Source of the DNA: Bacillus bingmayongensis
Lineage (GTDB): Bacteria; Bacillota; Bacilli; Bacillales; Bacillaceae_G
NCBI RefSeq assembly: GCF_000299035.1
Contig: NZ_JH921517.1
Location: 1,043,317-1,107,316, forward strand
Direction: 5' to 3'
Length of the DNA: 64,000 nt
Shown: piece after piece, positions 1,611-46,182 of the stretch
How positions within the stretch are numbered: position 1 is the first letter of the stretch
How the letters are laid out: each line of letters opens with the position of its first letter
Translations under genes and position numbers: made by a program
Notes under the pieces: generated by a model
The model's database searches: none
Seen by the model: only the letters and a program-made list of their open reading frames with translations
What the model was told of the DNA's origin: nothing

Positions 1611-4600
1611 TTGGTTGTCGAATTACAATATATTCCGTTGACACACCCTCAAAAAAGAATACTTAACATTGAATATTTTTATCCAGAGATTCCTATAAAC
1701 CATATTGGCGGCATTATTCAAATAACAGGAAAACTAAATCTTATGTATTTAGAGCAAGCAATTCAGTCGTGTATTCAAACAACAGAGGCATTAAGAGTCC
1801 ATTTAACTAGTAAGGATGGGGAGGTCTTACAATATATTAAAAAAAATAATCATATAAAGATTCCATTCTACGATTTTTCTAGCGATGAGTGCCCGAAAGA
1901 AAGCATGTTACAATGGGCCGAAAGAGAATTTCAACAACCATTCTTGTTTTTGGAAAATCCGCTTGTTAAATTTGCTGTACTAAAGATTGATGAAAATACA
2001 TGTGGTTATCTTATCAAGTGTCATCATATTATTGCTGATGGATGGTCAATGAAAATTATTATTGATAAAATTGAGAAACTTTATATGCAACTCGTAGAAG
2101 AAAAAAATCCCATTGAAAAATCCGACAATTATTATATCTGGGGTGAAAAAGAAAAAAAATATATGGAATCTTCACGATTTAAGAAAGATGAAGATTTTTG
2201 GAAGAACGAATTTTCAGATTTGAAAGGAATCTATTTGCAGAAAAGTTCTGAGCAAATTAATGGGAATCGAAAGACATTCAAAATTGGTGCTGTCCAATCA
2301 AAAAAGATTTATCAGTTCATAAAAGAACAGGGATGCTCTCTTAATGCACTATTTACAGCCGCGGTATTCTGTTATTTAAGTAAAGCATCTGCTCAAAATG
2401 ATTTAATTATAGGAACACCTGTTCTTAATAGGTCAGGGAATAAGGAAAAGGCAACAGCAGGAATGACTGTTAGTACAATGCCATTTAGAAAAAAGATAAA
2501 TTTAAATTTACCCTTTTCAACTTTTTTATTAGAAATCAATAAAACATACTTAAAATATTTTCAACATCAGCGTTATCCATATGACGTACTTGTAAAAGAA
2601 TTACAGTTAGCTAAAGAAGGTTATGAACAGCTTTTTCAAATCTATATTAATTCATATAGTACTAATATGGTATCTGATATTGATGGGAACTCAGTAGAAT
2701 ACATTGAACTTTATAACGGATATCAACCGTATTCCTTACAAATTGTGATAAAGGAATGGGATAAGAGCGGGACTATAGAACTCCAGTTTGATTATAAGCA
2801 ATTAGACTATAGGGAAGACGAGATAGATCTTCTAAATGAACGCTTAAATATATTAATTGAAAATGTTTTACAGAATCCTGAAATTTGTATGAAGGATATA
2901 TCCCTTTTAAATAATCATGAGTTAGAAGAAGAAATCTATGAGTGGAATCAGACGAAAACTGATTATCCTAAAGAAAAAGTTATTTATGAGCTATTTAAAG
3001 AACAGGTAAGATTACATTCAAATAAGATAGCAATTGAAGATCAAAATAAAGTGTTATCTTACCAGGAATTAGAAGAATATTCAAATAAAATCGCCCGTTA
3101 TTTTTTAGAAAAAGGCTTAAAGCGTAACGATTTTGTTGCAGTTTGTATGAATCATTCTCCAGAAATGATTGCTTTGCTGCTTGGGATTTTAAAAGCGGGT
3201 GGTGCTTATGTACCCATTGACCCTGATTATCCTGTAGAGCGTATGGATTTTATATTAGAAGATAGTGAATCAACTTTTCTTGTAACAGATTCAACCGTAG
3301 AGCAGATAAAAAACTGTACATTCAGTGGAAATATTATTCGCTTTGAGTTGAGTATTTTTACACCATATGACGCGGGATACTTGCATACAATAAATTCCCC
3401 AACAGATACTGCATATATGATTTATACCTCAGGGTCTACTGGCCAGCCTAAAGGGGTTATTATTGCACATCAAAATCTTGTGAATTATATTACATCCTCC
3501 TCTAAAAATTATATAACATCTCATGAAGATAGTTTTGCCTTATATTCATCCATTTCATTTGATTTAACAGTTACTTCTATATTTACGCCTTTAATAACAG
3601 GGAATAAAATTGTTATTTATAGACAAGAAGATACAACAGAGTTCGTTATTCAACGCATATTTAGAGAAAATAAAACGACAGTGATCAAATTAACACCTGC
3701 ACATTTATCTTTACTAAAAGATTGTGATATATCAAAATCCAGTGTTAAGAGATTAATTGTTGGGGGAGAGCAGTTATCAACGGATTTAGCAAAAAAAATA
3801 GTAGAAGCAGGAAAGAACCAAATCACAATTTTTAATGAATACGGACCGACTGAAGCTACAGTGGGATGTATGATTCATAAATATGATGTAAATACGGATT
3901 TACATAAATCAGTTCCAATCGGTTTGCCTATTCAAAATACGGAGATTTACCTTTTAGATGAGTTGCGTCAGCCAGTAATGCCAGGGGAAATTGGTGAAGT
4001 GTTTATTTCAGGAGATGGAATAGGAAAAGGGTATTGGAAACGACTAAATTTACAGGAACAAAATTTTATGGAAAATCCATTTGTTACGGGCAAAAGGATG
4101 TATAAAACAGGAGATCTCGGGAAAAGATTGGAAAATGGAAAAATTGAATATTTAGGAAGGAAAGATAACCAAGTTAAAATACGAGGCTATCGAATAGAAT
4201 TAGATGAAATTGAATTGACATTACTTTCTTTGAATGAAATTGAAGAAGCTGTAGTTGTGGCGTTTGATAATGAACATAAGCAAAAACAGTTGGTGGCATA
4301 TATTGTACAGACGGAAGAATCAACAACCTTTCTTTTAAGAAAAAAACTTGCGAGGTTGCTTCCTGCTTTTATGATTCCATCCTATTTTGTTCCTGTAGAC
4401 AGGCTCCCTTTGACACAAAATGGAAAAATAAATAGAGGTGCACTGCCAACTCCAGATTTAAAGCATTTGGGTAGTCATCTTGAATTGAACAACCAACAAA
4501 AAGCATTAGAGGGTCTTTTGTTAGAAATTGCACAAGAAGTGCTGGGGCGACAGAATATTAAGTTAGAGGATCATTTCTATCAAATAGGCGGAGATTCAAT

Positions 4601-6104
4601 TAAAGCTATCCAATATGTATCTAAATTAAAAGAAAAAGGATTGTATTTAAAAACAAACGACATTTTTACTTATCCCGTATTCAAAGAGCTAGCAAGTGTT
4701 GTGGAAAATCAACCAGTAAGGGAAATTCCACAAGCACAAACAGAAGGGGAAGTAATGGAAACGCCTATTACAAAATGGTTTTGGTGTTTAGGTTTGAATC
4801 AACCTGCTTTTTGGCATCAATCTGTTATGTTATCTTCGGAAAATATAATAAGAGAGGCTGAAGTAAAAGAAGTTGTACAGATTCTTTCAAATCATCATGA
4901 TGCATTAAGGATAAAGGTAAAAACCAAAAATAATAGACTTTATTATGACAACGCTATGCAGGATATAGAAATAAAAAGTTATGACTTATCCTTGTTAACT
5001 GAGGATCAAGTAGATGAGGAAATAAAGCGACTTGGACCACAATTAAGAGAAACTATGGACATATATAGTGATACTTTATTGAAAATTGGATTAATTAAAA
5101 CGAAAAATAAAACTATGGTGCTGTTCACAGCACATCATCTTATTGTTGATGGTGTATCTTGGCAAGTTTTTATAGAAGATTTTCTGAATATTTATAATGC
5201 TATTCGTAAGGGTGAAACATGGAGAGTGCCTTTAAAAACTCATTCATACCAAGTATTTGCGGAGAAGGTAAATGAATTAGCTAAATCTGAAGAATTATTA
5301 AGTGAGCAGGCATATTGGCTAAAAGAAGTGAAACGCATCCAGCTTTTATATAATCAAAATAAAGGAGAGGAAAAAGTAAAAGATAGTATGAAAATGCAAC
5401 GGAAATTAGATTTAAGTATGACTGAGAAGCTTCTAAGTACAGCGAATAGAGCTTATCAAACGCAAATTTATGAACTGCTGCTTGCGGCTCTAACACGTGC
5501 TTGTCATCAATGTACAAGTCAAAATATCGTCTCATTAGAATTAGAGGGGCACGGTAGAGATCAGATGGAAGGGAATATGGATTTTTCAAGAACGTTAGGG
5601 TGGTTTACTACAATGTTTCCTGCTAATTTCAGTGTGGAGCAGAGTTTATCGGCACATATACGTTCTGTAAAAGAAACATTCAGACAGATTCCGCGAAAAG
5701 GGATGGGCTATGGTATTTTGGCTTACTTAAACAATCAGTTTCTTCCTCATCAAAAACCAGAATTAAGATTTAATTATTTAGGAGAAATTGATCAAATGTT
5801 AACTGATAAATGTGGTTACAGTATATCATATTTAAATTCTGGAAATGAGTCTTCGCCAGAAAATCAACTGACTACACATTTGGATCTAACTGCAAGTATT
5901 CATAATCAACAACTTACTTTTAATTTGGCATTCAGCCACCACACGTATGAAATTCAGCAGATGGAGGAATTAATGGATGAACTGCTGTATCAGCTGGAGC
6001 TAATAACAAACCATTGCTGTGAGAAGAATTATACCGAGTTTACACCATCCGATTTTGAGACAGCCTCTATATCTTTAGAAGAAATGGATTCATTGTTTAG
6101 GTAA
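1611..6104 (+). CDS. NRPS, C-A-T-E, predicted N-acyl-D-Asn starter module (AmiA/XcnA-like)
   Basis: About 1497 residues with one NRPS module plus epimerization. An N-terminal condensation domain has HHIIADG near residue 138. As the first domain it would be a lipo-initiating C domain that adds a fatty acyl group. The adenylation domain (about 450-950) has YTSGSTGQPKG and EYGPTE. Reading the Stachelhaus positions by hand gives D-L-T-K-I-G-E-V-G-K, one change from the published Asn code. A thiolation site GGDSIKA lies near 993. An epimerization domain follows, with HHLIVDGVSW, EGHGRD, GWFTTMFP and FNYLGEID. The order fits an N-acyl-D-Asn prodrug cap, as in zwittermicin, xenocoumacin and amicoumacin. 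The frame is open from a GTG at 1533, but I prefer the TTG at 1611 because AGAAAGAGGTGG precedes it and the C domain begins just after. It opens the operon. Confidence 0.9.
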   Translation: MVVELQYIPLTHPQKRILNIEYFYPEIPINHIGGIIQITGKLNLMYLEQAIQSCIQTTEALRVHLTSKDGEVLQYIKKNNHIKIPFYDFSSDECPKESMLQWAEREFQQPFLFLENPLVKFAVLKIDENTCGYLIKCHHIIADGWSMKIIIDKIEKLYMQLVEEKNPIEKSDNYYIWGEKEKKYMESSRFKKDEDFWKNEFSDLKGIYLQKSSEQINGNRKTFKIGAVQSKKIYQFIKEQGCSLNALFTAAVFCYLSKASAQNDLIIGTPVLNRSGNKEKATAGMTVSTMPFRKKINLNLPFSTFLLEINKTYLKYFQHQRYPYDVLVKELQLAKEGYEQLFQIYINSYSTNMVSDIDGNSVEYIELYNGYQPYSLQIVIKEWDKSGTIELQFDYKQLDYREDEIDLLNERLNILIENVLQNPEICMKDISLLNNHELEEEIYEWNQTKTDYPKEKVIYELFKEQVRLHSNKIAIEDQNKVLSYQELEEYSNKIARYFLEKGLKRNDFVAVCMNHSPEMIALLLGILKAGGAYVPIDPDYPVERMDFILEDSESTFLVTDSTVEQIKNCTFSGNIIRFELSIFTPYDAGYLHTINSPTDTAYMIYTSGSTGQPKGVIIAHQNLVNYITSSSKNYITSHEDSFALYSSISFDLTVTSIFTPLITGNKIVIYRQEDTTEFVIQRIFRENKTTVIKLTPAHLSLLKDCDISKSSVKRLIVGGEQLSTDLAKKIVEAGKNQITIFNEYGPTEATVGCMIHKYDVNTDLHKSVPIGLPIQNTEIYLLDELRQPVMPGEIGEVFISGDGIGKGYWKRLNLQEQNFMENPFVTGKRMYKTGDLGKRLENGKIEYLGRKDNQVKIRGYRIELDEIELTLLSLNEIEEAVVVAFDNEHKQKQLVAYIVQTEESTTFLLRKKLARLLPAFMIPSYFVPVDRLPLTQNGKINRGALPTPDLKHLGSHLELNNQQKALEGLLLEIAQEVLGRQNIKLEDHFYQIGGDSIKAIQYVSKLKEKGLYLKTNDIFTYPVFKELASVVENQPVREIPQAQTEGEVMETPITKWFWCLGLNQPAFWHQSVMLSSENIIREAEVKEVVQILSNHHDALRIKVKTKNNRLYYDNAMQDIEIKSYDLSLLTEDQVDEEIKRLGPQLRETMDIYSDTLLKIGLIKTKNKTMVLFTAHHLIVDGVSWQVFIEDFLNIYNAIRKGETWRVPLKTHSYQVFAEKVNELAKSEELLSEQAYWLKEVKRIQLLYNQNKGEEKVKDSMKMQRKLDLSMTEKLLSTANRAYQTQIYELLLAALTRACHQCTSQNIVSLELEGHGRDQMEGNMDFSRTLGWFTTMFPANFSVEQSLSAHIRSVKETFRQIPRKGMGYGILAYLNNQFLPHQKPELRFNYLGEIDQMLTDKCGYSISYLNSGNESSPENQLTTHLDLTASIHNQQLTFNLAFSHHTYEIQQMEELMDELLYQLELITNHCCEKNYTEFTPSDFETASISLEEMDSLFR

Positions 6105-7582
6105 TGAGAGCTGAAAAATTACCTTCTATATTAAAGGTTTGGATAATATGTACTCTCTGTTTATTGGTTATTGTGATGAATGCTGATGTGGGTAGTGCGA
6201 AAAATGATTACAATGCATTGGATCAAATTATTGAACAACAAATGAAAAAAAGTAAGATTCCAGGTATGTCAGTTGTTGTTGTTAAAGGAGATACCGTCAT
6301 TTATAGCAAGGGGATTGGTCACATAAATGACCATAGTAATAAAATGGTTACTAGTTCAACATTGTTTGAGCTAGGGTCCACATCGAAAGCGTTCACTTCA
6401 TTGGCAATCTTAACGCTCGCTCAGAATGAGCAAATCGATTTAAAAGCACCTGTTAGTCGATATATACCAGGATTTCATGCTATGTACCATGGGGAAAAAC
6501 AAGAAATAACAATTGAACAATTGATTCATCATACAAGTGGTATTCCTTTATCATCCATTGCTCGTATAAAAGCGGATTCTAGTGAAAAAGCTTTACAGCA
6601 CACAGTCGAGAATATCAATGGGATTGAACTCGATCGTAAGCCAGGAACTGCATTTCAATACGCTACTATTAATTATGACGTACTAGGTTATATCATCCAA
6701 AAAATTTCAAGGCAGACGTATGAAGAATATATAACTGAGCAGATTTTTAAACCACTCAATTTGTCACGTACGTATGCAGGAAGGCAGGATGTATATAAAG
6801 ACGAATTTGCAGAAGGTTTTAAACTGAATTTTTTTAAAGCCAGTGCATACGAAGCACCTGAATATAAAGGAAATACACCAGCAGGCTATATCATTATGAA
6901 TGCAAATGATCTGGCAAAATGGCTTCAGTATCAATTAAACGAAAACAATTCAATTATAAAAAAGAGTCATGAACCGGATTTGAAAGTTAGAACAGAGGAG
7001 TATGGAGTGTACTATAACTACGGGTGGTATATAAAAAAGGATAAACACCATACGCAAGAACTTTTTCATGGAGGTTCTAATCCCAATTATTCGTCTTTTT
7101 TCATCATCCGGCCGGAAGAGAACCTAGCTATTGGTGTTCTAGCAAATATGAACAGTGCTTATACAGAGCTGGCAGCCAGGAAAGTGTTGCATACAGTAGC
7201 GAATGAAAAAGCAAACAGTAATATGACTGATCCTTTTCAATTCATCGACGCGTTATCTGTGATTGTATTTACATTATGTATATTTGTTAATTTTATCATC
7301 ACGTATCGTGCATTCGTTTTTATAAAAGAAATGCACCGAGGAATAAGAGGGTGGCAGGTACTAAACCGCCGAGTAGTTTTATCGATAGCAATGTGGCTTT
7401 TTGTTTTGATATTAGGTTTCTTGATACCGAGTTTGATCTCGCAAGTTTTCTTTAAAGGTTTGCCCTGGGATTTGATTTTGATATGGGGGCCTTATTCACT
7501 TCGTTATTTATCTATTGGTTTTTATGTAATGCTCATAGATGGTTGTGTATTTAGAATTATCAAAAGTTTCACTAAAATATAA
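6104..7582 (+). CDS. membrane-anchored D-Asn prodrug peptidase (ClbP/ZmaM/XcnG family)
   Basis: A 492-residue serine hydrolase of the class C beta-lactamase/ClbP type, expected to cut the N-acyl-D-Asn cap from the pre-antibiotic on the outer face of the membrane. An N-terminal hydrophobic segment (about 10-30) acts as signal or anchor. The catalytic S92-T-S-K95 and Tyr186 (in FQYATINY) closely match the Ser95/Lys98/Tyr186 triad of ClbP. A GGSNPN region near 326 stands where the KTG-like box is expected. Three C-terminal hydrophobic helices (about 385-410, 425-450 and 460-485) reproduce the ClbP layout of one outer domain plus three membrane helices. Its start shares one base with the stop of the D-Asn NRPS gene, so the cap maker and cap remover are translationally coupled. 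Family confidence is high. Confidence 0.92.
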   Translation: MRAEKLPSILKVWIICTLCLLVIVMNADVGSAKNDYNALDQIIEQQMKKSKIPGMSVVVVKGDTVIYSKGIGHINDHSNKMVTSSTLFELGSTSKAFTSLAILTLAQNEQIDLKAPVSRYIPGFHAMYHGEKQEITIEQLIHHTSGIPLSSIARIKADSSEKALQHTVENINGIELDRKPGTAFQYATINYDVLGYIIQKISRQTYEEYITEQIFKPLNLSRTYAGRQDVYKDEFAEGFKLNFFKASAYEAPEYKGNTPAGYIIMNANDLAKWLQYQLNENNSIIKKSHEPDLKVRTEEYGVYYNYGWYIKKDKHHTQELFHGGSNPNYSSFFIIRPEENLAIGVLANMNSAYTELAARKVLHTVANEKANSNMTDPFQFIDALSVIVFTLCIFVNFIITYRAFVFIKEMHRGIRGWQVLNRRVVLSIAMWLFVLILGFLIPSLISQVFFKGLPWDLILIWGPYSLRYLSIGFYVMLIDGCVFRIIKSFTKI

Positions 7583-7601
7583 ACCAAAAGGGGTAAAGTA
7601 T

Positions 7602-8591
7602 ATGAGTGTTGACAAGCAGATCCGTCATATTCAGCCATATAATGACGTATTTTACCGAAGCTGTTTTTTTAATTGTTATTTTTCAGTAGTGCGCTCGTTT
7701 CATGAAGAGCTTTATCCATACCTCCTGAATGACAGTTATTCATATGTTACAGACAAAGATGGTTACTTAAAAATGGAAAGTATGTCTGTACATAATCCTG
7801 AAAAGCTAATGAATCTGCAAGGGATTTTTACAGATAAACAATTTAAAAATGATGATCTCATTTTGAGTTTAAAAAAAGATCTGCTTCAAGAAAGACCAAT
7901 CATTATATGGATGGATATGTATGCGCAGCCCTACAGATCGGAATACTTATCTAAGCATGAGCGCAACTGTGTATTAATTTTTGGCATCCAAGAAAATGAA
8001 CAAAAGTTTACTATTTTAGAAAACCGTTATTATGATAATTTGTCATATGAAATTCGTCAGATTTCTTTTCAAGATGTAAAAAAGGGATACTATGGATTTC
8101 ATGACAATTTTAACCCTCATCATACATTTCACTCTTATGCAGCTTTTTATCATGATTCAAAACAAAAAAAAGATAATGCACTTATGTTTCAAGACCGAGA
8201 AGTTTATTTTCTTCAAAATATGACTAAAAACATAAAGATAATGTTTAATGGTTTAGAAAGTTTTAAGCTCTTTATCAATCGGTTACATACAATCACGAAT
8301 TCCGAAAAGTTACTTCAATCATTTAATCAAATAATGAATACAAAAAAAATTGAGCAGTATCGTTTGTCATATCTTCCATCTATGGATAAGAACATTATTG
8401 AATTATTTAATGAAACGATACAAGAATGGGAAAAAGCTCGGTATCAGGCTGCAAAAATGTTTTTTTCAGAAAGTCATATATTAGATTATGCGACACGTAT
8501 AGGGGAGCCTTTAGAAAGAATTATTCAAATGGAAAAAGAGTATTTAGAGTGGTTAGTGGATGCTTGTGAAAAGGAGCGTACTTTGTTATGA
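7602..8591 (+). CDS. BtrH N-terminal/C39-like accessory protein, function unknown
   Basis: I start this 329-residue protein at an ATG preceded by AAAAGGGG with good spacing; the open frame extends further upstream. The segment from RSCFFNCYF to WMDMYAQPYRSEYLSKH resembles the BtrH N-terminal family, a papain/C39-like fold. There is an early Cys, a conserved DM-pYRSEY block, and a following HERNCVLIFGIQ stretch where the family places its His. Members occur beside NRPS and aminoglycoside genes as acyl-transferring or peptidase-like enzymes. The C-terminal 100 residues are helical. It follows the prodrug peptidase and overlaps the thioesterase gene by an ATGA. It may act on a carrier-bound intermediate, but no reaction can be assigned from sequence. 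In the amicoumacin operon a gene of unclear function takes the same place, as I recall. Confidence 0.6.
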   Translation: MSVDKQIRHIQPYNDVFYRSCFFNCYFSVVRSFHEELYPYLLNDSYSYVTDKDGYLKMESMSVHNPEKLMNLQGIFTDKQFKNDDLILSLKKDLLQERPIIIWMDMYAQPYRSEYLSKHERNCVLIFGIQENEQKFTILENRYYDNLSYEIRQISFQDVKKGYYGFHDNFNPHHTFHSYAAFYHDSKQKKDNALMFQDREVYFLQNMTKNIKIMFNGLESFKLFINRLHTITNSEKLLQSFNQIMNTKKIEQYRLSYLPSMDKNIIELFNETIQEWEKARYQAAKMFFSESHILDYATRIGEPLERIIQMEKEYLEWLVDACEKERTLL

Positions 8592-9304
8592 AATTATTCT
8601 GCCTACCATATGCAGGAAGTTCAAGCACAATCTTTAGTTCGTGGAAAAGATTTTTAGATAAGTCGCTTGAACTAGTAGCGCTAGAATTACCGGGACATGG
8701 AACAAGGATGGCGGAGCCGTTGCTCCATGACGTACTGACAGTAGTTGAAGATCTTTACTTACAGGTTCAGCCGCATCTAAGTTATGATGAGGAATTTGCG
8801 ATTTTTGGACATAGTATGGGTTCACTTCTAGCATATGAATTACAAAGAAAAATAAAAGATGAAAAGAAAAAAGAGCCTGTGCATGTATTTTTTTCAGGGC
8901 GTTTTCCCCCACATATCGCCGAGAAAAAAGTTTTTCATCAATTGCCAGATAACGAGCTCAAGGAAGCCATTATTAATATGGGGGGAGTACCTGAAGAATA
9001 TAGGAGGAATCATCAAATTCTCGACTTCTTTATACCTGTATTAAGAGCAGATTTTCAATTGCTAGAAACATATAAGTGTCAAGCTGTTCATTCTGTGCAG
9101 TGCGATATTTCTATTTTTTATGGAAAACATGATTTGCCGTCCGTGCTTTTTGATTTAGATGAATGGGGTCAATATACAAAAAGTCACTGTCGTTTTTATG
9201 AATTTAACGGGGATCATTTTTTTATCAATCAGTTGCCTGAAGAAGTAGTTTCATATATTAATAATATTTTAAATCGAACAGGAGTGGTAGGAAAATGGAG
9301 ATGA
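8588..9304 (+). CDS. type II thioesterase (alpha/beta hydrolase)
   Basis: A 238-residue stand-alone thioesterase of the GrsT/SrfAD type. The nucleophile elbow GHSMGS lies near residue 80, after the N-terminal LFCLPYAGSSS oxyanion loop. The family Asp is in FYGKHD near 178, and the catalytic His is in FNGDHFFI near 208. Such enzymes clear misloaded acyl groups from carrier domains and so repair stalled NRPS/PKS lines. Because none of the megasynthases in this window carries a C-terminal TE domain, this protein could also help release the final chain; that is inference. Its ATG overlaps the stop of the previous gene, and its own end overlaps the next start, which indicates one transcript. Confidence 0.92.
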   Translation: MKLFCLPYAGSSSTIFSSWKRFLDKSLELVALELPGHGTRMAEPLLHDVLTVVEDLYLQVQPHLSYDEEFAIFGHSMGSLLAYELQRKIKDEKKKEPVHVFFSGRFPPHIAEKKVFHQLPDNELKEAIINMGGVPEEYRRNHQILDFFIPVLRADFQLLETYKCQAVHSVQCDISIFYGKHDLPSVLFDLDEWGQYTKSHCRFYEFNGDHFFINQLPEEVVSYINNILNRTGVVGKWR

Positions 9305-10149
9305 AATATGTAGGTGTTGTTGGGGCCGGAGTTATGGGTGCCGATATGGCTCTAGATTTATCAATGAATGGTTATAAGGTTATATTAACTGACATAAATG
9401 AAGAAAAACTTCAAGATGCAGAAGAAAATATCAGGAAAACGTTCAAATTAGTGCAGCTAGTAAGAAAAAGAGTAGTTAAGCCCTCTCTTGAAGAGGTACT
9501 TGAAAATATTCATTTTAGTACAAATATTAACGATTTTGCAAGAGCAGAAATTATTATTGAAAATGTAACGGAAGATTGGTCGGTGAAACAAAAAATCTAT
9601 GAAAAATTAAGAGATATTTGTCATGAAAATACAATATATTTTGTAAATACAAGTTGCATTTCTATTACAAAGGTCGGAGCACTTATGCATTATCCAAATA
9701 AGGTAATCGGCGCTCATTTTATGAATCCTGTTCCTTTAAAAGAACTCGTTGAGGTAATTAAAGGCCATGAAACATCTGATGATACGGTTGAAACTACCAA
9801 ACACTTTCTAAAATCGTTTGGTAAAAATCCAGTTGTTGTAAATGATTTTCCTGGATTTGTTTCAAATCGTGTATTGATGTTGACTATTAATGAAAGTATC
9901 TGGACGGTTCAAGATCAAGTAGGAACACCGTATAATGTCGATAAAATCTTTCGAGATGGATTTGGGCATAAAATGGGACCCCTTGCAACAGCTGATTTAA
10001 TTGGTCTTGATACTATATTGAACTCACTTCTTGTATTATACGAAAGCTATAAAGACCCTAAATTCCGTCCGTGTCCGCTATTAGTAAAAATGGTTGATGC
10101 AGGTCAGCTTGGGAAAAAGTCAGGAAAAGGATTCTTTAGTTATGAGTGA
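9295..10149 (+). CDS. 3-hydroxyacyl-CoA dehydrogenase-like enzyme for hydroxymalonyl-ACP
   Basis: A 284-residue NAD-dependent dehydrogenase of the 3-hydroxybutyryl-CoA dehydrogenase family. GVVGAGVMGADMA at the N terminus is the Rossmann nucleotide-binding loop. The C-terminal domain carries the expected GAHFMNPVPLKELVE and NDFPGFVSNR blocks. In hydroxymalonyl- and methoxymalonyl-ACP pathways (ZmaG, FkbK/AsmI type) this enzyme oxidises the glyceryl-ACP hydroxyl to an aldehyde. Its neighbours are the other three members of that set: FkbH-like, ACP and acyl-CoA dehydrogenase. No O-methyltransferase is present, so the extender should be hydroxymalonyl rather than methoxymalonyl. A GGAGTGGTAGG ribosome site lies inside the end of the thioesterase gene. 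Confidence 0.9.
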   Translation: MEMKYVGVVGAGVMGADMALDLSMNGYKVILTDINEEKLQDAEENIRKTFKLVQLVRKRVVKPSLEEVLENIHFSTNINDFARAEIIIENVTEDWSVKQKIYEKLRDICHENTIYFVNTSCISITKVGALMHYPNKVIGAHFMNPVPLKELVEVIKGHETSDDTVETTKHFLKSFGKNPVVVNDFPGFVSNRVLMLTINESIWTVQDQVGTPYNVDKIFRDGFGHKMGPLATADLIGLDTILNSLLVLYESYKDPKFRPCPLLVKMVDAGQLGKKSGKGFFSYE

Positions 10150-10163
10150 AAGGAGAAAATGCT

Positions 10164-11246: not shown

Positions 11247-11516
11247 ATGAATCTTCATGAAAGAGTGAGAGAATATATTGAGAAAAATCTAGTTGTTTTT
11301 GATGAGGAAATAAATTTATCAAATGATAGTCATATTTTTGAGATGGGATTCGTCAATTCCCTGTTTGCAATGAAGCTTGTAAACTATTTAGAACAGGATT
11401 TCGGATTTGAGTTAGATAATCAGGATTTAAATATTGCGAATTTTAGTACAGTCAATCGAATTGTTGCGCTTATAGAAAAAAAACAGACAGGAGCGAACGT
11501 TCATGAAAATAGCTGA
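11247..11516 (+). CDS. acyl carrier protein for hydroxymalonyl extender
   Basis: An 89-residue stand-alone carrier protein. The phosphopantetheine Ser lies in MGFVNSLFAMKLV near residue 38. This variant of the DSL motif lacks the usual Asp and is typical of the FkbJ/AsmK/ZmaD type carriers that hold glyceryl and hydroxymalonyl units. The protein is acidic and helical, as expected. It sits between the FkbH gene and the acyl-CoA dehydrogenase gene, which completes the tethered pathway. A GCGAGGAGAATG ribosome site precedes the ATG. The next gene starts before this one ends. Confidence 0.93.
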   Translation: MNLHERVREYIEKNLVVFDEEINLSNDSHIFEMGFVNSLFAMKLVNYLEQDFGFELDNQDLNIANFSTVNRIVALIEKKQTGANVHENS

Positions 11517-28972: not shown

Positions 28973-29013
28973 ATGTAACCCACACTTTAATTTTAGATAG
29001 GAGAGTGAAATCT

Positions 29014-36627: not shown

Positions 36628-39600
36628 TTATCACGGTGGAGAGATTGCTGTAATTGGAATAGCTGGGCGTTTTCCAGGAGCTAAAAATATTGAGCAATTT
36701 TGGGACAATATTATAAATGGAAAAGAATCAATTTCCTTTTTCAGTGAAGAAGAACTGAAAAGTGAAGGGGTAGAGGAGTCTTTATTGAAGAATCCTCGTT
36801 TTGTTAAAGCAAAAGGAATAGTAGATGATATTGATTTATTTGACGCTGATTTTTTTGATTATACTCCAAAAGAAGCAGCAATAATGGATCCTCAATTTAG
36901 AATTTTTCATGAGTGTGTATGGACAGCTTTAGAAGATGCTGGCTATGATCCTTTCACATACAAAGGACAAATTGGATTATATGCGGGTGCTGGAATTAAT
37001 GCTGATTGGATGATGAGAACTCTGCAAGGTGTACAAGCAGGAGGAGATTCCAAAGTTTTAGAAACCGCTGTTTTAAATATGCGCGATTATCTAACCACAC
37101 TCATTTCCTATAAACTCAATTTAAAAGGACCGAGTATGATGGTACAGACTGCATGCTCGACTTCGATGGTATCCATTCATCTTGCAGCTCAGGCATTATT
37201 GAGCGGAGATTGTCATATGGCTGTAGCAGGCGGAGTGTCTATCCGTCTTCCTCAAAAATCGGGTTATCTTTATCAAGAAGGAATGATTCATTCACCAGAT
37301 GGTCACTGCCGTGTTTTTGATGACCAAGCAGAAGGAACAGTGTTTGGAGACGGGGCGGGAGCTGTTGTACTAAAAACACTTGAAGATGCATTAGAAGACA
37401 GGGACCATATTTATGCGGTTATTAAAGGAACAGCTATTAATAATGATGGAAATCTAAAAGTTGGCTACACAGCACCGAGTACGAAAGGGCAAGTAAGAGC
37501 TATCAAGACAGCATTAAATATAGCAGAGGTGGATCCAGAGACAATCACATATTTAGAGGCTCATGGTACAGGAACAACACTTGGAGACCCTATTGAGATT
37601 GAAGCCTTAAAACAAGCTTTTCAGACTAAACAGTATGGATTTTGTCGAATTGGTTCGGTTAAATCTAACATTGGTCATTTGAATGATGCTTCTGGTGTTG
37701 CAGGGTTTATTAAAACAGTTTTAAGTTTACAGCACAAACTGATTCCTCCAACAATCAATTTTGAAAAACCGAATGCTAAAATTGATTTTGAGAAATCACC
37801 ATTTATTGTAAATACATCTCTGGTTCCATGGGAAGAGAAAAATTTCCCTCGTCGTGCTGGTGTCAGTTCATTTGGAATAGGAGGAACGAATGCCCATGTG
37901 ATTTTAGAAGAAGCACCATCAGTCCAAAGATCATTTGCAGATGAACCTTCTGATCAACTTATACTGTTATCTGCAAAAACACCAGCCGCATTAGAAAAAA
38001 TGACTACAAAGTTTGCCGAGTATCTTATTAAAAATCAGCAAATCAACCTGGCTGATGTATCGTATACACTTCAAAGAGGAAAACACGTTTTTCCTTATAA
38101 GAAAGCGATTGTAAGTAAGGATGTTCCAGAACTGCTTGATATAATTAATGAAAATAGAAAAGACAAGATGAAATTAGCAAGCTCCCAAACTTCTAGCAGA
38201 CCTGTTGTCTTTTTATTTCCGGGTCAGGGTACACAGTACGTTGATATGGGAAGAGAATTATATGATACTGTTCCTGCTTTTAAAGCTGAACTAGACAAAT
38301 GTCTGAATCTATTACAGCAGTTTATGAGAGTTGATCCTCGTACTGTTTTATTTACTGACTCAAAGGACCATGATTCGGATCTAATTAATCAAACTGAATT
38401 TACACAACCTCTTCTTTTTAGTATCGAGTACGCCTTAGCAAAGACACTTATTCATTGGGGGATTAAGCCGGAAGCTATGGTGGGACACAGTATAGGGGAA
38501 TATACTGCAGCAGCAATTTCAGGTGTTATGTCCTTAGAAAATGCTTTAGAAATTGTGGCGTACAGAGGTAGCACTTTGCAAAGCTTACCTTCAGGCTCTA
38601 TGCTAAGTGTGGAACTTAGTGAAGCAGATTTAAAGAATTATTTAGAAGATAATGTATCGATTGCAGCTGTCAATTCAACTAGTTTGTGTGTTGTATCTGG
38701 AAAAGCAGATACACTGGATGCGTTAGAAAAAAGGTTGACTGTAGATGGACACATATCTAGGAAACTTTATACTTCGCATGCGTTTCATTCAGCTATGATG
38801 GATCCTATTGTACAGCCTTTTAAAGATAAATTGTTAGAATTCTGTTTTGAAAGCCCAAGTATTCCGTTTGTTTCAAATGTAACAGGGGATTGGATAACTA
38901 ATGCAGAGGCTACTAATCCAAGATATTGGGCAAATCACCTGCGCGGAACTGTTCGTTTTATGGATTGTGCAAAGCGTTTACAAGAAGAGTTGAACCCGAT
39001 TTTTATTGAGGTTGGACCAGGCAATTCACTCAGTTCCTTTATTCACAAAATGGATCAAGAAGAACAAGTATCTGCTATTCAATTGTTGCGGCACCCTAAG
39101 GAGCAATGTTCGGATTACCGTTATCTTTTAATTAGATTGGGAGATATGTGGCTTCAAGGGATACCGATTGATTGGAAAGCAATTCATCAAGTAGAAAAGC
39201 GTCATACGGTACCGCTACCTACTTATCCGTTTGAGAAAGAACGTTATTGGATCGATAAAGTAACGGAAGGGCCTGATATAGCCTTATCTTCTGAGTTTAA
39301 ACTTGTAATTCCTAACAGCCCGAAAACTGATAATAAACAAAATGGTTCGAATTATAACGTGGATTTTAATGCAACTGAGGTTGTATTGGCTAATATGTGG
39401 AAGGATATTCTCGGAATTAACCAAGTTAATATTGATACCCATTTCTTTGAAATGGGAGGGCATTCTTTAAATGCTACGGGATTAATATCAAGAATTCACA
39501 GAGAATTTGGGGTAGAATTAACATTAAGCGATATATTTAAGCATCCAACAATACAAACACTTGCAGAACTTATTGAACGTTCAGAAAGAAATCAATATAC

Positions 39601-42600
39601 AGCAATTACACCTGCTGAAGTGAAGGATGTATATAGGCTATCAGCAGCTCAAAAGAGAACGTTCCTTGTTCATCAAAGAATAGGGAAAATGACCACTTAT
39701 AATATGCCAATGGCGCTAATATGCTATGGTCCAATGGATGTGAAACGTTTTGAAAAGACTTTTAAACAGCTAATTGAAAGGCATGAAACACTTCGTACGA
39801 CATTTGAATTGAAGGATGGAGAACCTGTACAAAAAATTCATCGTGAGTTTGATTTTGCAATTGAAATAACTGAATCAGATATGGAAAATTTAGATAAGGA
39901 AATAGATGATTTTATTCGTCCTTTTGATTTAAAAGTGTCCCCTTTAATTCGTGTGAAGTTTGTAAAATTAGATAATAGAAAGCATGCTTTATTGGTTGAT
40001 ATGCATAATATTGTTGCTGATGGCGCGAGCATGAATATTTTTATTAAGGAATTTACGCAGTTGTACAAAGGTGAGGGTCTACCTGAAATAAAAGTACAAT
40101 ATAAGGATTACGCTGAATGGCAGCACGCATATTTCCAAAGTGATATGTTCTATAAACAAAAACAATATTGGATTCAGCAACTTGAAGCTGATGTACCGCA
40201 ATTAGCAATGCCGCTTGATTTCGAACGAACAGAAAAGAGCTTTCTTGGAAAAGCCATCAAATTTACAATTGACCCTAAAATCGTGAAAAAACTTGAACAG
40301 ATTGGTGATCAGTATCGCTTGACAAACAATGTACTGTTATTTCAATTATATGGAATTTTGCTTTCGCGTTATACAAATCAGCAGGAGCTAATGATTGGGT
40401 CTTTAGTTGCTGGCCGACGTCATGCTGACATAGAGTATACAATTGGGATGTTTACTAATTTTCTACCGATAAGGCTTCGAATTAATCAAGAACAATCTTT
40501 TATTGATAATGTATTGAAAACAAAGCAGACTCTACTTGAAGCATATGATCATCAAGATTATCCGTTTAATCAAATTGTTGAAGAATTGTGTCCTAAGACC
40601 GAACCAAACCGCAATCCTTTATTTGATACGATGTTGATTTACCATAATGAATATGATCCAAATATTAAAATGGAAGCAGATGGAATGAAATTTGAGACTT
40701 ATGAGTTTGCAAAAGGTATATCGAAACTGGATATGAAAATGGACGTAGTTAAAGAGGTAACAGGAGAATTAAAATGTGTACTTCAGTATAATAGTTCATT
40801 ATTTAAATCAGAATCCATGCAGGCATTTGTCTCGCATTTCAGTTCATTGATTGAAAAAGTAAGTGATCAGCCTCAAGAAATTATGAAAAATATACCAATA
40901 CTTAGTCCGAAAGAACAGGAAGAAGCAAAAAAGAAGAGGGTGACAACAAACAAAATTTCAAACTCGACTTTATTAACTGTGAGTTCGACTTTTATAGCTA
41001 ATCCACTTGCTCCATACATTAGATGGTGGGGAGAACAGTTTGATTTGAATGTTGAAATTGAATTTTCTCCCTATGGACAAGTCTTTCAAGAATTATTAAA
41101 TAAAGATAGTTTGTTATCTCGTCGTAAAAAAGGAGCGAATCTTCTAATGATCCGTTTAGAGGATTTAATGGGAGATGCAAGTCTATCAGAAAAAGAGAAA
41201 ATGCAGCATTTACAACAGAATTTGTTTGATCTTTTAAATATCATTAAGAATATAGAAAAGCATGTACCTTACCTGATTGGAATTCTTCCACTTAGAGAAA
41301 TATTTAATAGTCAATTCCAGAAACAGCTTGAGAGAATACAGAAAGACTGGATTGAAGGTTTAACTAGAATTGAAAATATTCATCTTATAGATTTCCGTCC
41401 ATTGAGGGAGACATATCAATTAGATGAAGTATTTGATTATCAAGCTGAAAAAGCTGCGCATATTCCATTCACTGAAAATTATTATGCAGCATTAGGAACG
41501 AGAATTGCACGCGAATTAATTGCTTGGCTGAAAGTGCCGTTCAAAGTTGCTGCAATTGATTGTGACCATACATTATGGAAAGGTGTGGTTTCTGAGGTTG
41601 GTGTTGAAGGGATTGAAATAACAAAGGCTCATCAAGAATTACAGAAGTTTTTAAAGAAAAAACAAGAGGAAGGATTACTACTTGTTCTTTGTAGCAAAAA
41701 CAATGAAGAAGATGTATGGAGCGTGTTTGATCATCATCCAGATATGATATTAAAGAAAAGTGATTTTGTTGATCATCGTATTAACTGGGGACAAAAGAAT
41801 GATAACATTGTAGAACTTGCCAAAGAATTAAACTTATCCACCGATCGTTTTATTTTCTTGGATGATGATCCCGCTCAATGTTTAACAATGAACCAGCGAC
41901 TTCCAGATGTCCTTACGCTACTTTTACCGACTAGCACTGAAGCGATTCCTCTGTTTTTGGAGCATGTATGGGCATTTGATCATTTTCATGTGACTGATGA
42001 AGATAAAAAACGAACGGAAAGATACTTGGCAGAAAAAGAGCGGAAATTGGCTCTTCACACAGCATCTTCTGTTGAGGATTTTCTCAGTACTCTAAATTTA
42101 AAGGTCAGTTTAAATCGTATAGTAGAAGAACATCTACCTCGCATTTCTCAAATGACTGCTAGAGTTAATCAGTTTAATATGAATCCAGCTGTTTATGATG
42201 AGCAATGGCTCCGCCAACAGTTGAATTCAAAGGGGAGAGTTGGATGGGTTGTTGAATCTACTGACCGATTTAGCGATGAGGGGATAATCGGAGTGATCCT
42301 GGCAAAACAGGCACAAGACACTTTATTCATTGATACCTTTTTAATAAGTTGCCGAGCACTTGGAAAAGGAATTGAAAGTAAGGTGTTATCAGGTATCGCT
42401 AAATATTGTCGAAACGAACAGCTTAAGTATATAAAGTTTAAATATGTTGATTCAGGGAAAAACCAGCCTTTTAAAGTATTTATGCATACACACGATATAC
42501 ATCTGATAGATGTGGATGATCAATCGATGTATCACATTGCAGTGAAAAATATTCCTGATTATAGTCCGTATATCGAGTACTACACAGATAAAAAAATAAC

Positions 42601-43045
42601 ATTGATTAAACAAGATGAATCGGATAAAGCTGCTGAATATGAAGTAAAAAGGGATCGATTAGCAAAAAGTTCAGTTTATCAATGGGATGTGTTATATCCT
42701 GAAAAATCTATGCATACATCATACTTACGTGCCCTTGAAACGAATTGTCCTGAAAAACTTCAATCTTTATTAGTGAGAAAAAATCAAAAATTCAGTTTAC
42801 AAGAAGTTGAATCAATGACTGAGCAAGAAACAATTCTTATGAATATATGGAAAGATATCCTCAAATTAGATAAAATAGGAATGCGCCAAGACTTTTTCAG
42901 TTTAGGAGGAAATTCGCTGTTAGCTATCAAAATGGAAGTGGAAATAGAAAAAAAAGGATGGGTTGTTGATAATATGAATTTTGCGACGGAACATACAATT
43001 AGAGGGCTCGCAAAATGTATGAGGAGAGAGAATCAGCATGCATAA
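36605..43045 (+). CDS. PKS-NRPS hybrid, KS-AT-T-C(variant)-FkbH-T (AmiM-like)
   Basis: A 2146-residue terminal synthase. Order: KS (TACSTSM, HGTGT, NIGHLN); AT (GQGTQY, GHSIGEY, SHAFHS); T (GGHSLN, about 951); C domain (about 1012-1440) reading DMHNIVADG, so the second His of HHxxxDG is Asn1135; SGNH-like linker (about 1455-1640); FkbH domain (DCDHTLWKG about 1652, CSKNNE, FLDDDPAQ, SCRALGKG); final T (LGGNSLL, about 2100). The KS-AT-T part would add the last C2 unit with no reduction. The FkbH domain could load a glyceryl unit on the last T. No TE, R or release domain is visible. It overlaps its neighbours on both sides. Domain calls are firm; the role of the C-FkbH-T tail is unknown. Confidence 0.92.
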   Translation: MMKNQTYNYHGGEIAVIGIAGRFPGAKNIEQFWDNIINGKESISFFSEEELKSEGVEESLLKNPRFVKAKGIVDDIDLFDADFFDYTPKEAAIMDPQFRIFHECVWTALEDAGYDPFTYKGQIGLYAGAGINADWMMRTLQGVQAGGDSKVLETAVLNMRDYLTTLISYKLNLKGPSMMVQTACSTSMVSIHLAAQALLSGDCHMAVAGGVSIRLPQKSGYLYQEGMIHSPDGHCRVFDDQAEGTVFGDGAGAVVLKTLEDALEDRDHIYAVIKGTAINNDGNLKVGYTAPSTKGQVRAIKTALNIAEVDPETITYLEAHGTGTTLGDPIEIEALKQAFQTKQYGFCRIGSVKSNIGHLNDASGVAGFIKTVLSLQHKLIPPTINFEKPNAKIDFEKSPFIVNTSLVPWEEKNFPRRAGVSSFGIGGTNAHVILEEAPSVQRSFADEPSDQLILLSAKTPAALEKMTTKFAEYLIKNQQINLADVSYTLQRGKHVFPYKKAIVSKDVPELLDIINENRKDKMKLASSQTSSRPVVFLFPGQGTQYVDMGRELYDTVPAFKAELDKCLNLLQQFMRVDPRTVLFTDSKDHDSDLINQTEFTQPLLFSIEYALAKTLIHWGIKPEAMVGHSIGEYTAAAISGVMSLENALEIVAYRGSTLQSLPSGSMLSVELSEADLKNYLEDNVSIAAVNSTSLCVVSGKADTLDALEKRLTVDGHISRKLYTSHAFHSAMMDPIVQPFKDKLLEFCFESPSIPFVSNVTGDWITNAEATNPRYWANHLRGTVRFMDCAKRLQEELNPIFIEVGPGNSLSSFIHKMDQEEQVSAIQLLRHPKEQCSDYRYLLIRLGDMWLQGIPIDWKAIHQVEKRHTVPLPTYPFEKERYWIDKVTEGPDIALSSEFKLVIPNSPKTDNKQNGSNYNVDFNATEVVLANMWKDILGINQVNIDTHFFEMGGHSLNATGLISRIHREFGVELTLSDIFKHPTIQTLAELIERSERNQYTAITPAEVKDVYRLSAAQKRTFLVHQRIGKMTTYNMPMALICYGPMDVKRFEKTFKQLIERHETLRTTFELKDGEPVQKIHREFDFAIEITESDMENLDKEIDDFIRPFDLKVSPLIRVKFVKLDNRKHALLVDMHNIVADGASMNIFIKEFTQLYKGEGLPEIKVQYKDYAEWQHAYFQSDMFYKQKQYWIQQLEADVPQLAMPLDFERTEKSFLGKAIKFTIDPKIVKKLEQIGDQYRLTNNVLLFQLYGILLSRYTNQQELMIGSLVAGRRHADIEYTIGMFTNFLPIRLRINQEQSFIDNVLKTKQTLLEAYDHQDYPFNQIVEELCPKTEPNRNPLFDTMLIYHNEYDPNIKMEADGMKFETYEFAKGISKLDMKMDVVKEVTGELKCVLQYNSSLFKSESMQAFVSHFSSLIEKVSDQPQEIMKNIPILSPKEQEEAKKKRVTTNKISNSTLLTVSSTFIANPLAPYIRWWGEQFDLNVEIEFSPYGQVFQELLNKDSLLSRRKKGANLLMIRLEDLMGDASLSEKEKMQHLQQNLFDLLNIIKNIEKHVPYLIGILPLREIFNSQFQKQLERIQKDWIEGLTRIENIHLIDFRPLRETYQLDEVFDYQAEKAAHIPFTENYYAALGTRIARELIAWLKVPFKVAAIDCDHTLWKGVVSEVGVEGIEITKAHQELQKFLKKKQEEGLLLVLCSKNNEEDVWSVFDHHPDMILKKSDFVDHRINWGQKNDNIVELAKELNLSTDRFIFLDDDPAQCLTMNQRLPDVLTLLLPTSTEAIPLFLEHVWAFDHFHVTDEDKKRTERYLAEKERKLALHTASSVEDFLSTLNLKVSLNRIVEEHLPRISQMTARVNQFNMNPAVYDEQWLRQQLNSKGRVGWVVESTDRFSDEGIIGVILAKQAQDTLFIDTFLISCRALGKGIESKVLSGIAKYCRNEQLKYIKFKYVDSGKNQPFKVFMHTHDIHLIDVDDQSMYHIAVKNIPDYSPYIEYYTDKKITLIKQDESDKAAEYEVKRDRLAKSSVYQWDVLYPEKSMHTSYLRALETNCPEKLQSLLVRKNQKFSLQEVESMTEQETILMNIWKDILKLDKIGMRQDFFSLGGNSLLAIKMEVEIEKKGWVVDNMNFATEHTIRGLAKCMRRENQHA

Positions 43046-44048
43046 AGATATAAAAGCTATTTTTAATGAAGAAGAGATAATAAAAAAAGCAGCAAAAATA
43101 TATGGGTTTAATAGAGAAGATGCTCATTTTCTTGCTGATGCAGAAAATTATGTATATGAATTTTCGAAAGATCGAGTATCATATATTTTGAAAATTACTC
43201 ATACAATTCGCAGAATACCTGAATATATTATGGGAGAAATGGAATGGCTTCACCATTTAATAAAGGGAGGACTCTCTGTTTCCAGACCAATTCCATCACT
43301 AAAAGGAAATTATATTGAAGAAGTATCTGATGGAAAGGGTGAGGGTGGCGCATTTTTATTGAGAGTTTATGAGAAAGCCACCGGTCATAAAGTAGAGGCG
43401 TCAGATTGGAACGAAGAATTATTTTATCAGCTTGGAAAGTATACAGGTAACATGCATCGTTTAACAAAAAGCTATCAGTTAAGTAATTCTGCATATAAAA
43501 GACAAGAGTGGGATGAAGAGGAACAATTAAAATTGAGAAAATACGTACCAAAAGATCAAACAATTGTTTTTCAACAGGCAGATAAGTTAATGGATGCACT
43601 ACGTCAATTACCAAAGGATCGAGATAATTATGGGCTAGTCCATGCGGATTTGCATCACGGTAATTTTTGCTGGGATAATGGTAAAATTACCATGTTTGAT
43701 TTTGATGATGTAGGCTACAACTGGTTTGTAAATGACATTAGCATTCTATTATACAATGTTTTATGGTACCCAGTGATTCCATATGAAGATAAGGCAGCGT
43801 TCACGGAAAAATTTATGCGTAATTTTCTGAAAGGGTATGAAGAACACAATAAGCTGGATTTAAATTCCTTAGAGAGAATTCCTGATTTTCTACGTTTACG
43901 TCACATGCTCATCTATGGATTATTACATCAGGCTTTTGATTTTGATACAATTGGCCAAGAAGAAAAAGATATGCTTGCTAGATTTAAAGATGAAATAGAG
44001 AATCAAACTCCTATCACGGACTTTAATTTTACGGCATTAACAAAATAG
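43038..44048 (+). CDS. APH/HSK2-fold antibiotic kinase, likely self-resistance (AmiN-like)
   Basis: A 336-residue kinase of the aminoglycoside phosphotransferase/choline kinase fold. The Brenner catalytic loop reads HADLHHGN near residue 203, and the Mg-binding FDFDD follows near 224. A Lys in YILKIT near 54 should bind ATP. In amicoumacin producers the last operon gene, AmiN, phosphorylates the antibiotic and makes it unable to block the ribosome. This gene has the same place, overlapping the last PKS gene by eight bases, so producer protection is the best reading. It is the only resistance-type enzyme in the operon. No obvious terminator follows; an IS3-family remnant begins about 10 bases downstream. 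Confidence 0.88.
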   Translation: MHKDIKAIFNEEEIIKKAAKIYGFNREDAHFLADAENYVYEFSKDRVSYILKITHTIRRIPEYIMGEMEWLHHLIKGGLSVSRPIPSLKGNYIEEVSDGKGEGGAFLLRVYEKATGHKVEASDWNEELFYQLGKYTGNMHRLTKSYQLSNSAYKRQEWDEEEQLKLRKYVPKDQTIVFQQADKLMDALRQLPKDRDNYGLVHADLHHGNFCWDNGKITMFDFDDVGYNWFVNDISILLYNVLWYPVIPYEDKAAFTEKFMRNFLKGYEEHNKLDLNSLERIPDFLRLRHMLIYGLLHQAFDFDTIGQEEKDMLARFKDEIENQTPITDFNFTALTK

Positions 44049-44058
44049 AATAGGGTGC

Positions 44059-44400
44059 TTGTCAAAAAGACTAAACTACCTGTTCTCTAAATTTTTTAGG
44101 GGACAGGTAATTTAAATTCTCTTGAATTAGCATACAATTGTAGTAATGAATGTATGCTAGTACACTTTTTCGCACGACTATGTTGGATACTCTTGTTATT
44201 TTTGGTGAATAGAAAGCTTTACTTTTCAAATGTTTTAAGAAATCTTCTATTACGGTGTTATTCTGCAAATTTCCTTTTTATGATGTGCTTGTAATCATTC
44301 TGTTGTTTTTTGAGACTTGAAATGCCTTCGCTATATAAATATTTCCTTGATTAGAATAAAGAGGAACACCTTATACCTTTTTTGTTTGTTTCAACGTTTC
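44059..44400 (-). pseudogene. IS3-family transposase (OrfB) 3' remnant
   Basis: On the minus strand, 44071-44277 reads as the C terminus of an IS3-family DDE transposase: QNNTVIEDFLKHLKSKAF, then AYIHYYN and NYLSPKKFREQ, the usual C-terminal signature. The same frame continues upstream with YSNQGNIYIAKAFQ, equivalent to the HSDQGxxYTS block, but is broken by a TAA at 44278-44280 and another stop near 44370. The first half of the transposase and orfA are absent. It separates the kinase gene from the phosphatase gene, so it records an old insertion at the cluster edge. The left edge near 44059 (TGTCAAAAAGACTAAACT) may be the surviving element end; the right limit is uncertain. Confidence 0.75.
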
Positions 44401-44862: not shown

Positions 44863-46182
44863 ATGATGTTTAAAAAAGTAGCAACAATCGCATTGGGAGT
44901 TAGCCTATTATTTTCAGGAGTTTATTTTCATTTTGATAAAAAAGTATCTGCAAAAAATGGACATGTAAATAAGAAAGTTAAAAATGTAATCTTTTTAATC
45001 CCGGATGGTTTTTCAGCAGGTTATGCGAGCAGTTACTATTGGTATAAAGGCTCAGGTTCAGTGATGGATCAAATACTTGTAGGAATGATTCGTACACATC
45101 CTGCAAATCAGCAAGTGACTGATTCGGCAGCAGCAGGAACAGCAATGGCAACGGGAGTAAAAACTAATAATGATATGGTAAGTGTTTCGCCTCAAGGAGA
45201 GAAATTAAAAACAATTCTTGAAGCTTCTAAAGAAGCAGGGAAATCAACGGGATTAGTTGCAACAGCAAGTATTACTGATGCTACCCCGGCAACTTTTGCT
45301 TCTCATGTAGTTTCTCGTGCTAAAGAAGTGGATATTGCAACTCAAATAGTAGATAACAATGTTGATATACTCTTAGGGGGAGGAAAACAATTCTTTCTTC
45401 CTATAACAGAAGGGGGAAAGCAACCAACAAGAAATTTAATTGCTGAGGCACAAAAAAAAGGATATCAATTAATAGATACGCATGAACAGCTTGTTAAAGC
45501 TAAAACAAAAGGGAAAATATTAGGTTTATTCGCTAATGAAGCAATGTCACCTGAATTAGATCGGGAAAACACCAATCAGCCAAGCCTTGAAGATATGACA
45601 ACATTAGCTCTGAATACGTTAAAAAAAGATGAAAATGGATTTTTTCTTATGGTGGAAGGTAGTCAAATAGATGATGCGGGTCATGAGCATGATGCTGCAA
45701 GAGCTATGAAAGAAGTTGAGGCATTCGAAAAAGCAGTAAAAGTTTCTCTTGATTATGCAAAAAAAGATGGAGAAACTTTGGTTGTTATAGCGGGAGATCA
45801 TGATACTGGAGGGCTGTCAATTGGGAGAGGAAGCGTCTTTGCTACACATGTTGAAATCTTGCGTAATGTAAATGCTTCAGGGGATTTTATGACCAAGCAA
45901 ATCAATAATGAAAAAAGTAACATACAAGAAGTGCTAAAACAGTATGCAAATATTGATTTAAATGATCAAGAAATAAAAAGAATTAAGGAATCGGCAGATA
46001 TGAAACCGACTATTAATGATATCATTAGTGAACATGCAGTAATAGGGTGGACAACTATTGGGCATACAGGTGTTAATAATCCCGTATATGCATTTGGTCC
46101 GAATTTTGAATGGTTTAGAGGGTTACATGATAATACAGACCTTCCAAAATTAATTGCAAAAGCATCTGGAATTAAGCTTTAA
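44863..46182 (+). CDS. secreted alkaline phosphatase, likely activates phosphorylated antibiotic (AmiO-like)
   Basis: A 439-residue alkaline phosphatase of the PhoA/PhoB superfamily. A signal peptide (residues 1-30, with a basic start, a hydrophobic core and VSAKN near the cut) sends it outside the membrane. Metal and catalytic motifs are visible: [11 protein letters not shown] near 46, [12 protein letters not shown] near 87 with the nucleophilic Ser, [13 protein letters not shown] near 263, AGDHDTGG near 309, and GHTG near 409. In amicoumacin producers AmiO dephosphorylates the exported inactive phospho-antibiotic. The kinase next door on the 5' side supports that reading. The alternative is a general phosphate-scavenging enzyme. 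The IS3 remnant between the two genes means it has its own promoter. Confidence 0.88.

Follow-up and report, generated by a model that had tools for sequence, protein, structure and literature searches.

Organization of the locus

Bacillus bingmayongensis, which we take to be close to the B. cereus group, carries an amicoumacin-like (ami) biosynthetic cluster on contig NZ_JH921517.1 of assembly GCF_000299035.1. The DNA analyzed here, referred to as the window, is a stretch of 64,000 nucleotides (positions 1,043,317 to 1,107,316 of that contig). The cluster comprises 15 reading frames, all on the + strand, extending from about 1611 to 46182 of the window (Table 1). Protein domains were assigned by profile searches against Pfam and NCBIfam/TIGRFAM together with inspection of motifs. 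The resulting assembly line consists of condensation (C), adenylation (A), carrier (T, ACP or PCP), epimerization (E), ketosynthase (KS), acyltransferase (AT) and ketoreductase (KR) domains. Pfam searches bear out the domain layout proposed in a preliminary description of this DNA, and the KR order given there for the four C2 modules, namely present, absent, present, absent, is correct. The second condensation-type stretch of AmiA is an E domain, with the motif HHLIVDGV.

The mechanical start of amiA is at 1533. The likely start is the TTG at 1611, as already proposed in that description, because the strong ribosome-binding site AAAGAGGTGG lies 5' of this codon and because, counted from the mechanical start, the alignment of AmiA to the reference opens only at residue 31, i.e., at 1623. 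Promoter-like sites upstream of amiA are at chance level (6 found, 7.2 expected), and an Rfam search returned no match.

Table 1. Features of the ami cluster and its borders. Coordinates are window positions; percentages are amino-acid identities to the corresponding protein of B. inaquosorum unless stated otherwise.
Feature	Position	Strand	Content and predicted role	Basis
PPTase gene	71..772	-	4'-phosphopantetheinyl transferase (PPTase), divergent from amiA	Pfam ACPS, AASDHPPT_N; TIGR00556
amiA	1611..6104	+	starter C-A (Asn code DLTKIGEVG)-T-E; predicted acyl-D-Asn formation	58%
amiB	6104..7582	+	membrane serine peptidase, beta-lactamase fold; predicted to remove acyl-D-Asn	49%
amiC	7539..8591	+	function unassigned; BtrH_N match below threshold, with Cys and His residues invariant	48%
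amiD	8588..9304	+	free-standing thioesterase	Pfam; 70%
amiE	9295..10149	+	3-hydroxyacyl-CoA dehydrogenase; predicted hydroxymalonyl-ACP supply	Pfam; 76%
amiF	10146..11219	+	FkbH (HAD) protein; predicted hydroxymalonyl-ACP supply	TIGR01686; 77%
amiG	11247..11516	+	acyl carrier protein; predicted hydroxymalonyl-ACP supply	Pfam; 80%
amiH	11503..12645	+	acyl-CoA dehydrogenase; predicted hydroxymalonyl-ACP supply	Pfam; 78%
amiI	12665..21766	+	C-A(Asn)-T-KS-AT(GYSFG)-KR-T-C	Pfam, motifs; 67%
amiJ	21787..24447	+	partial C-A (code DAQDLGNVQ)-T; Leu predicted	Pfam, motifs; 59%
amiK	24437..28972	+	KS-AT-KR-ACP	Pfam, motifs; 64%
amiL	29005..36627	+	KS-AT(inactive motif)-ACP-KS-AT-KR-ACP	Pfam, motifs; 64%
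first AT of amiL	30517..31644	+	GRGFG in place of GHSxG; HAFH missing at the aligned place	motif alignment
amiM	36605..43045	+	KS-AT-ACP, then C-FkbH-PCP tail	Pfam, motifs; 68%
AmiM tail	39617..43042	+	C (MHNIVADG), FkbH domain (DCDHT), PCP (GGNS)	motifs, profile match
amiN	43038..44048	+	amicoumacin kinase (APH fold); predicted self-resistance	75%; PDB 6sui match
transposase remnant	44071..44277	-	integrase core (rve_2), between amiN and the phosphatase gene	E 1.6e-7
phosphatase gene	44863..46182	+	alkaline phosphatase at the amiO position, outside the AmiO clade	Pfam; 40% to AmiO; trees
transposase fragment	46154..46480	+	82 residues at 70% identity to the C-terminal end of the transposase encoded at 47761-49251	alignment
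transposase gene	47761..49251	-	full-length DDE (IS4-family) transposase	Pfam

Relation to known amicoumacin clusters

Two ami clusters served for comparison with the window, that of B. inaquosorum KCTC 13429 and that of one B. pumilus strain. All 14 genes from amiA to amiN (1611-44048) have a match in B. inaquosorum, at 48-80% identity and with order and strand kept; because 14 of 14 genes share order and strand with the reference, a chance match is excluded. Identities to the B. pumilus cluster are 44-81% for A-N and 38% for O, with the AmiL alignment spanning residues 724-2536 of the window protein only. AmiI, in particular, is 67% identical to its counterpart in B. inaquosorum and 60% identical to that in B. 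pumilus. Thus, the amicoumacin gene order proposed in the preliminary description holds for genes A-N against both references, and among the two ami clusters compared no better match to a system with a non-isocoumarin product emerged. The cluster had also been called complete; this is right for A-N (14/14), whereas the phosphatase does not fall within the clade of AmiO. A scan of genome contigs returned 29 loci, in which AmiK is at most 63% identical to that of the window.

Zwittermicin clusters, which B. cereus and B. thuringiensis commonly carry, share the prodrug and hydroxymalonyl logic, but their product is not an isocoumarin. A zwittermicin-type cluster in the window would agree with the description of that cluster as closely related to ami and frequent in B. 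cereus (PMC8835302). However, the AmiI identities given above contrast with the less than 40% identity of ZmaK to AmiI, a threshold taken from the same survey in place of a direct comparison with a zma cluster, and AmiK-M and AmiN match ami throughout. We consider this alternative extremely improbable.

The reference sequences are tied to function by published work. AmiA-M of B. inaquosorum KCTC 13429 share >97% identity with their counterparts in B. subtilis 1779 (PMC5055758), whose ami locus was proven by heterologous expression; incorporation of Asn and Leu in the 1779 producer was shown by feeding, and the role of AmiB by deletion and by conversion of preamicoumacin, the deletions of amiA and amiB having been made in the laboratory strain B. 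subtilis JH642+sfp (PMC4894447). Of the types distinguished in PMC8835302, the window cluster is closer to that of B. subtilis, because its identities are higher to B. inaquosorum than to B. pumilus. We conclude that it is very probably an amicoumacin cluster of this type. Since ami clusters have been listed for many Bacilli, B. bingmayongensis included (PMC8835302), the occurrence of such a cluster in a genome of the B. cereus type is probably already in print. That is, the amicoumacin system is already known, and the window holds a further, diverged cluster of a known family. Its divergence from the reference helps to tell conserved from tolerated positions, and it points to two features of the Bacillus ami assembly line: an AT without a catalytic Ser, and a conserved tail of glycerate type for which the known structure offers no place.

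Specificity and predicted product

The adenylation codes were taken from motif anchors. In all three clusters (window, B. inaquosorum and B. pumilus) the code DLTKIGEVG is common to AmiA and AmiI. The AT of AmiI carries the motif GYSFG, again in 3/3 clusters, which fits a shared unusual extender unit. The KS cysteines, KR tyrosines, carrier serines, and the histidines of the C and E domains are kept; the HHxxxD motif of the partial C domain of AmiJ is found in none of the three clusters.

Read along the operon, AmiA would form N-acyl-D-Asn, AmiI would add Asn and then a hydroxymalonyl unit, which AmiE-H would supply and AmiI would reduce, and AmiJ would add Leu. AmiK, AmiL and AmiM would contribute four malonyl units, of which only the first and the third would be followed by a reduction. 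The reduction by AmiK would place on the former Leu carbonyl (C3) the hydroxyl that carries the lactone oxygen. Without reduction in the first module of AmiL, C4a would remain a ketone, making ring closure possible; reduction in the second module would allow C6 to lose its oxygen as water; and without reduction in AmiM, C8 would stay oxygenated, as a phenol. The chain would then cyclize to an 8-hydroxy-3,4-dihydroisocoumarin. The earlier prediction of a dihydroisocoumarin is therefore sound as a deduction from domain order, and it is backed by the identity to producers. Gene content, gene order, motifs and codes can be seen in the sequence; an amicoumacin product and expression of the cluster are inferred.

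The AmiJ code is DAQDLGNVQ in the window, DAQDMGNVQ in B. inaquosorum and DAQDLGAVQ in B. pumilus, and Leu is assigned to AmiJ because of its likeness to the producers. The product might instead be an amicoumacin A congener in which Leu is replaced by another aliphatic residue or in which D-Asn bears a different acyl chain. Two observations point in this direction, namely that AmiJ, at 59% identity to B. inaquosorum, shows lower conservation than AmiI, K, L and M, and that its code is one position off from each reference. However, the two reference codes differ from one another at these same two positions, and identical structures have been reported for both types (PMC8835302). A congener is thus unlikely, and amicoumacin A is retained as the predicted product.

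Self-protection and the phosphatase at the amiO position

AmiN aligns with the solved amicoumacin kinase (PDB 6sui) over residues 1-335, at 557.6 bits. AmiB keeps the peptidase motif S-x-x-K, as STSK. It aligns over residues 38-477 (193 bits) with 7mdc and 7ul6, entries labeled beta-lactamase that we take to be full-length ClbP, and over residues 39-352 (167.5 bits) with the entries named ClbP peptidase. By analogy, AmiB at the membrane would cut off the acyl-D-Asn to yield active amicoumacin A, AmiN would phosphorylate and thereby inactivate amicoumacin inside the cell, and an exported phosphatase would reactivate it. These kinase and phosphatase roles have been described for amicoumacin systems (PMC8835302). 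In the window, reactivation would fall to an alkaline phosphatase of another clade.

Several observations weigh against the assignment to amicoumacin. To our knowledge, the AmiJ code is not among the textbook codes for Leu. The best solved relative of AmiB is Flp, presumably an S. aureus-type protein, which at 205.5 bits ranks above the ClbP peptidase entries. No counterpart of the MFS gene adjoining amiA was found among 17 flanking open reading frames (E 1e-3), the window extending about 1.6 kb upstream of amiA; in other ami clusters such a gene lies beside amiA (PMC12366304). The remaining points concern the phosphatase. It is 40% identical to AmiO of B. inaquosorum, and its gene is co-directional with the operon, whereas amiO of the references is convergent. 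A first tree (17 rows, including two repeats of the same genes) placed it outside the AmiO clade, with a long-branch warning. In a second tree of 14 rows, from which the longest row had been dropped, the five AmiO proteins form a clade (support 100/99), with the window phosphatase again outside. Finally, because transposase remnants flank the phosphatase gene on both sides, it is uncertain whether this gene is expressed together with the operon. The downstream fragment, which lies in another frame, overlaps the phosphatase gene at its end, and family searches gave no match to the fragment itself.

The approximately unbiased (AU) test rejects a group of the window phosphatase with the five AmiO alone (p 1.13e-05), a group that was named after the first tree. 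In the 14-row tree, the window phosphatase pairs with the phosphatase L059 of genome G132 (support 100/100). A larger group that unites this pair with AmiO is present in the best tree, but with support 29/10, and is neither shown nor rejected; the pair is possibly, but not necessarily, sister to AmiO. G132 belongs to a sample of 397 genomes from the order of B. inaquosorum, and it is not one of the three in which amiC was found. The phosphatase search covered 10 genomes, 8 of which yielded one, and in 5/5 ami genomes searched the best non-cluster phosphatase scores above the cluster's own AmiO. The secreted phosphatase of the preliminary description is present as an alkaline phosphatase gene, but it does not belong to the AmiO clade.

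Our reading is that a different phosphatase took the place of amiO in this genome, and its gene seems to derive from another lineage. A published survey offers parallels: direct orientation of amiO and flanking by transposons are reported for a few distant clusters, and ami clusters without amiO exist, in which other phosphatases are thought to serve (PMC8835302). The window suggests that, with the kinase retained, the phosphatase for reactivation can be drawn from a different lineage.

The same region could also be taken to mean that the cluster is silent or incomplete, its phosphatase end having been rearranged by insertion sequences and its adjacent exporter not being seen. This would be in keeping with the integrase remnant and the transposase fragment on either side of a phosphatase from outside the AmiO clade, and with the lack of a match for the 17 flanking frames in the reference ami regions. 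The frames and motifs of genes A-N are nevertheless intact, and the published clusters without amiO just mentioned argue in the same sense. We regard a silent or incomplete cluster as quite improbable.

The first acyltransferase of AmiL and the AmiM tail

The first AT of AmiL has no catalytic Ser in any of seven distinct clusters (the window, B. inaquosorum, two of B. pumilus, B. zhangzhouensis, B. safensis and B. stratosphericus; alignment of nine rows including two repeats), Gly or Asp occupying its position. In five of the seven this AT is also about 100 residues shorter. Because the catalytic Ser is missing, module 1 of AmiL would have to be loaded by another AT.

The second feature is the C-FkbH-PCP tail of AmiM. 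Its FkbH domain scores 271.2 bits against a cut-off of 146.65, and the FkbH (DCDHT or DCDGT) and PCP (GGNS) motifs are kept in 3/3 clusters. In the tail C domain the first His is replaced by Met, likewise in 3/3, while the second His and the DG are kept. The published count is eight modules, for three amino acids and five malonates (PMC4894447), and therefore no role is left for the tail, which has no counterpart in the amicoumacin structure. Neither the inactive AT nor the tail is specific to this window. Term searches of open-licence text, outside figures and supplements, turned up no amicoumacin paper dealing with the inactive AT or with the tail.

AmiC might be connected with this tail. 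It matches BtrH_N (Pfam) at E 3.1e-6 and 27.9 bits, below the gathering threshold of 29.7, and this match is the sole basis of its likeness to BtrH. Cys42, Cys46 and His140 are invariant in five sequences, and by sequence AmiC is possibly a cysteine acyltransferase. No PDB relative was found by sequence below E 0.7, NCBIfam gave no match, and a single-sequence structure prediction was unusable (mean pLDDT 34.1).

Tentatively, the tail could be an accessory branch, in which the FkbH domain would load a glycerate-type unit onto the last PCP, and the tail C domain or AmiC would pass it to amicoumacin or a precursor, giving an acylated form so far unseen or a release step. The conserved FkbH and PCP motifs and the retained second His and DG of the tail C domain speak for such a branch. 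So does Xenorhabdus bovienii, which makes amicoumacin from a cluster described as lacking amiC, amiN and amiO, and whose AmiL-M comprises 3419 residues (PMC5055758); by length arithmetic this is about a shortened AmiL plus a tailless AmiM, and would be too short to contain the tail. A megaplasmid of Niallia taxi carries an unlike nonribosomal peptide synthetase/polyketide synthase cluster (L073, ~17366-28275), part of which aligns with residues 841-2110 of AmiM at 35% identity. This stretch is a related ACP-C-FkbH-PCP, and the cluster has no match to AmiC, which argues against a link between tail and AmiC. On balance the accessory branch is a rather unlikely proposal; if true, it would concern all Bacillus ami clusters.

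Flanking genes

The PPTase encoded next to the cluster could activate its carrier proteins. A frame of 97 residues between the PPTase gene and amiA (1011-1304, - strand) gave no match in family searches.

Downstream, 54686-56562 encodes an ArsR-type regulator, an SBF-family (ACR3-like) pump and an LMWPc (arsenate-reductase-like) protein. In a plasmid search with the DNA of 46500-64000, the part 55093-56563 matched an arsenic operon of a plasmid from Bacillus arachidis at 85% identity, over 8% of the query. A cytochrome P450 gene at 57415-58647 has counterparts on plasmids of Priestia megaterium, three in number, at 79% DNA identity (7% of the same query). Among 397 genomes from the order of B. 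inaquosorum, the best-scoring match to the flank DNA 49831-52432 was at 73% identity, and among 20 of these genomes the match to 60000-64000 was at 71%. Membership of the B. cereus group, as implied in the preliminary description, is plausible.

A plasmid location of the cluster was considered and rejected, plasmid searches giving no DNA match for AmiK and no protein match for AmiC. The top-listed protein matches on plasmids were at 41% for AmiN, 35% over 97% for AmiM, and 42% for the PPTase.

Comparison with known systems

The Xenorhabdus amicoumacin and xenocoumacin clusters share the assembly logic and the prodrug peptidase with the window, but the Xenorhabdus genes are rearranged (PMC5055758). 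The B. pumilus group has the same gene set, the motifs of the AmiM tail and the inactive first AT of AmiL, but identity is lower, as seen for AmiI, and its first AmiL AT is about 100 residues shorter in 5/5 distinct loci examined. With respect to the ami clusters of B. inaquosorum KCTC 13429 and B. subtilis 1779, the window differs from the B. inaquosorum region in its co-directional phosphatase of another clade, the reference gene being convergent, and in the upstream PPTase gene, which has no match in the reference region. It resembles both clusters in genes A-N, their order and strand, the domains, the Asn codes and the kinase.

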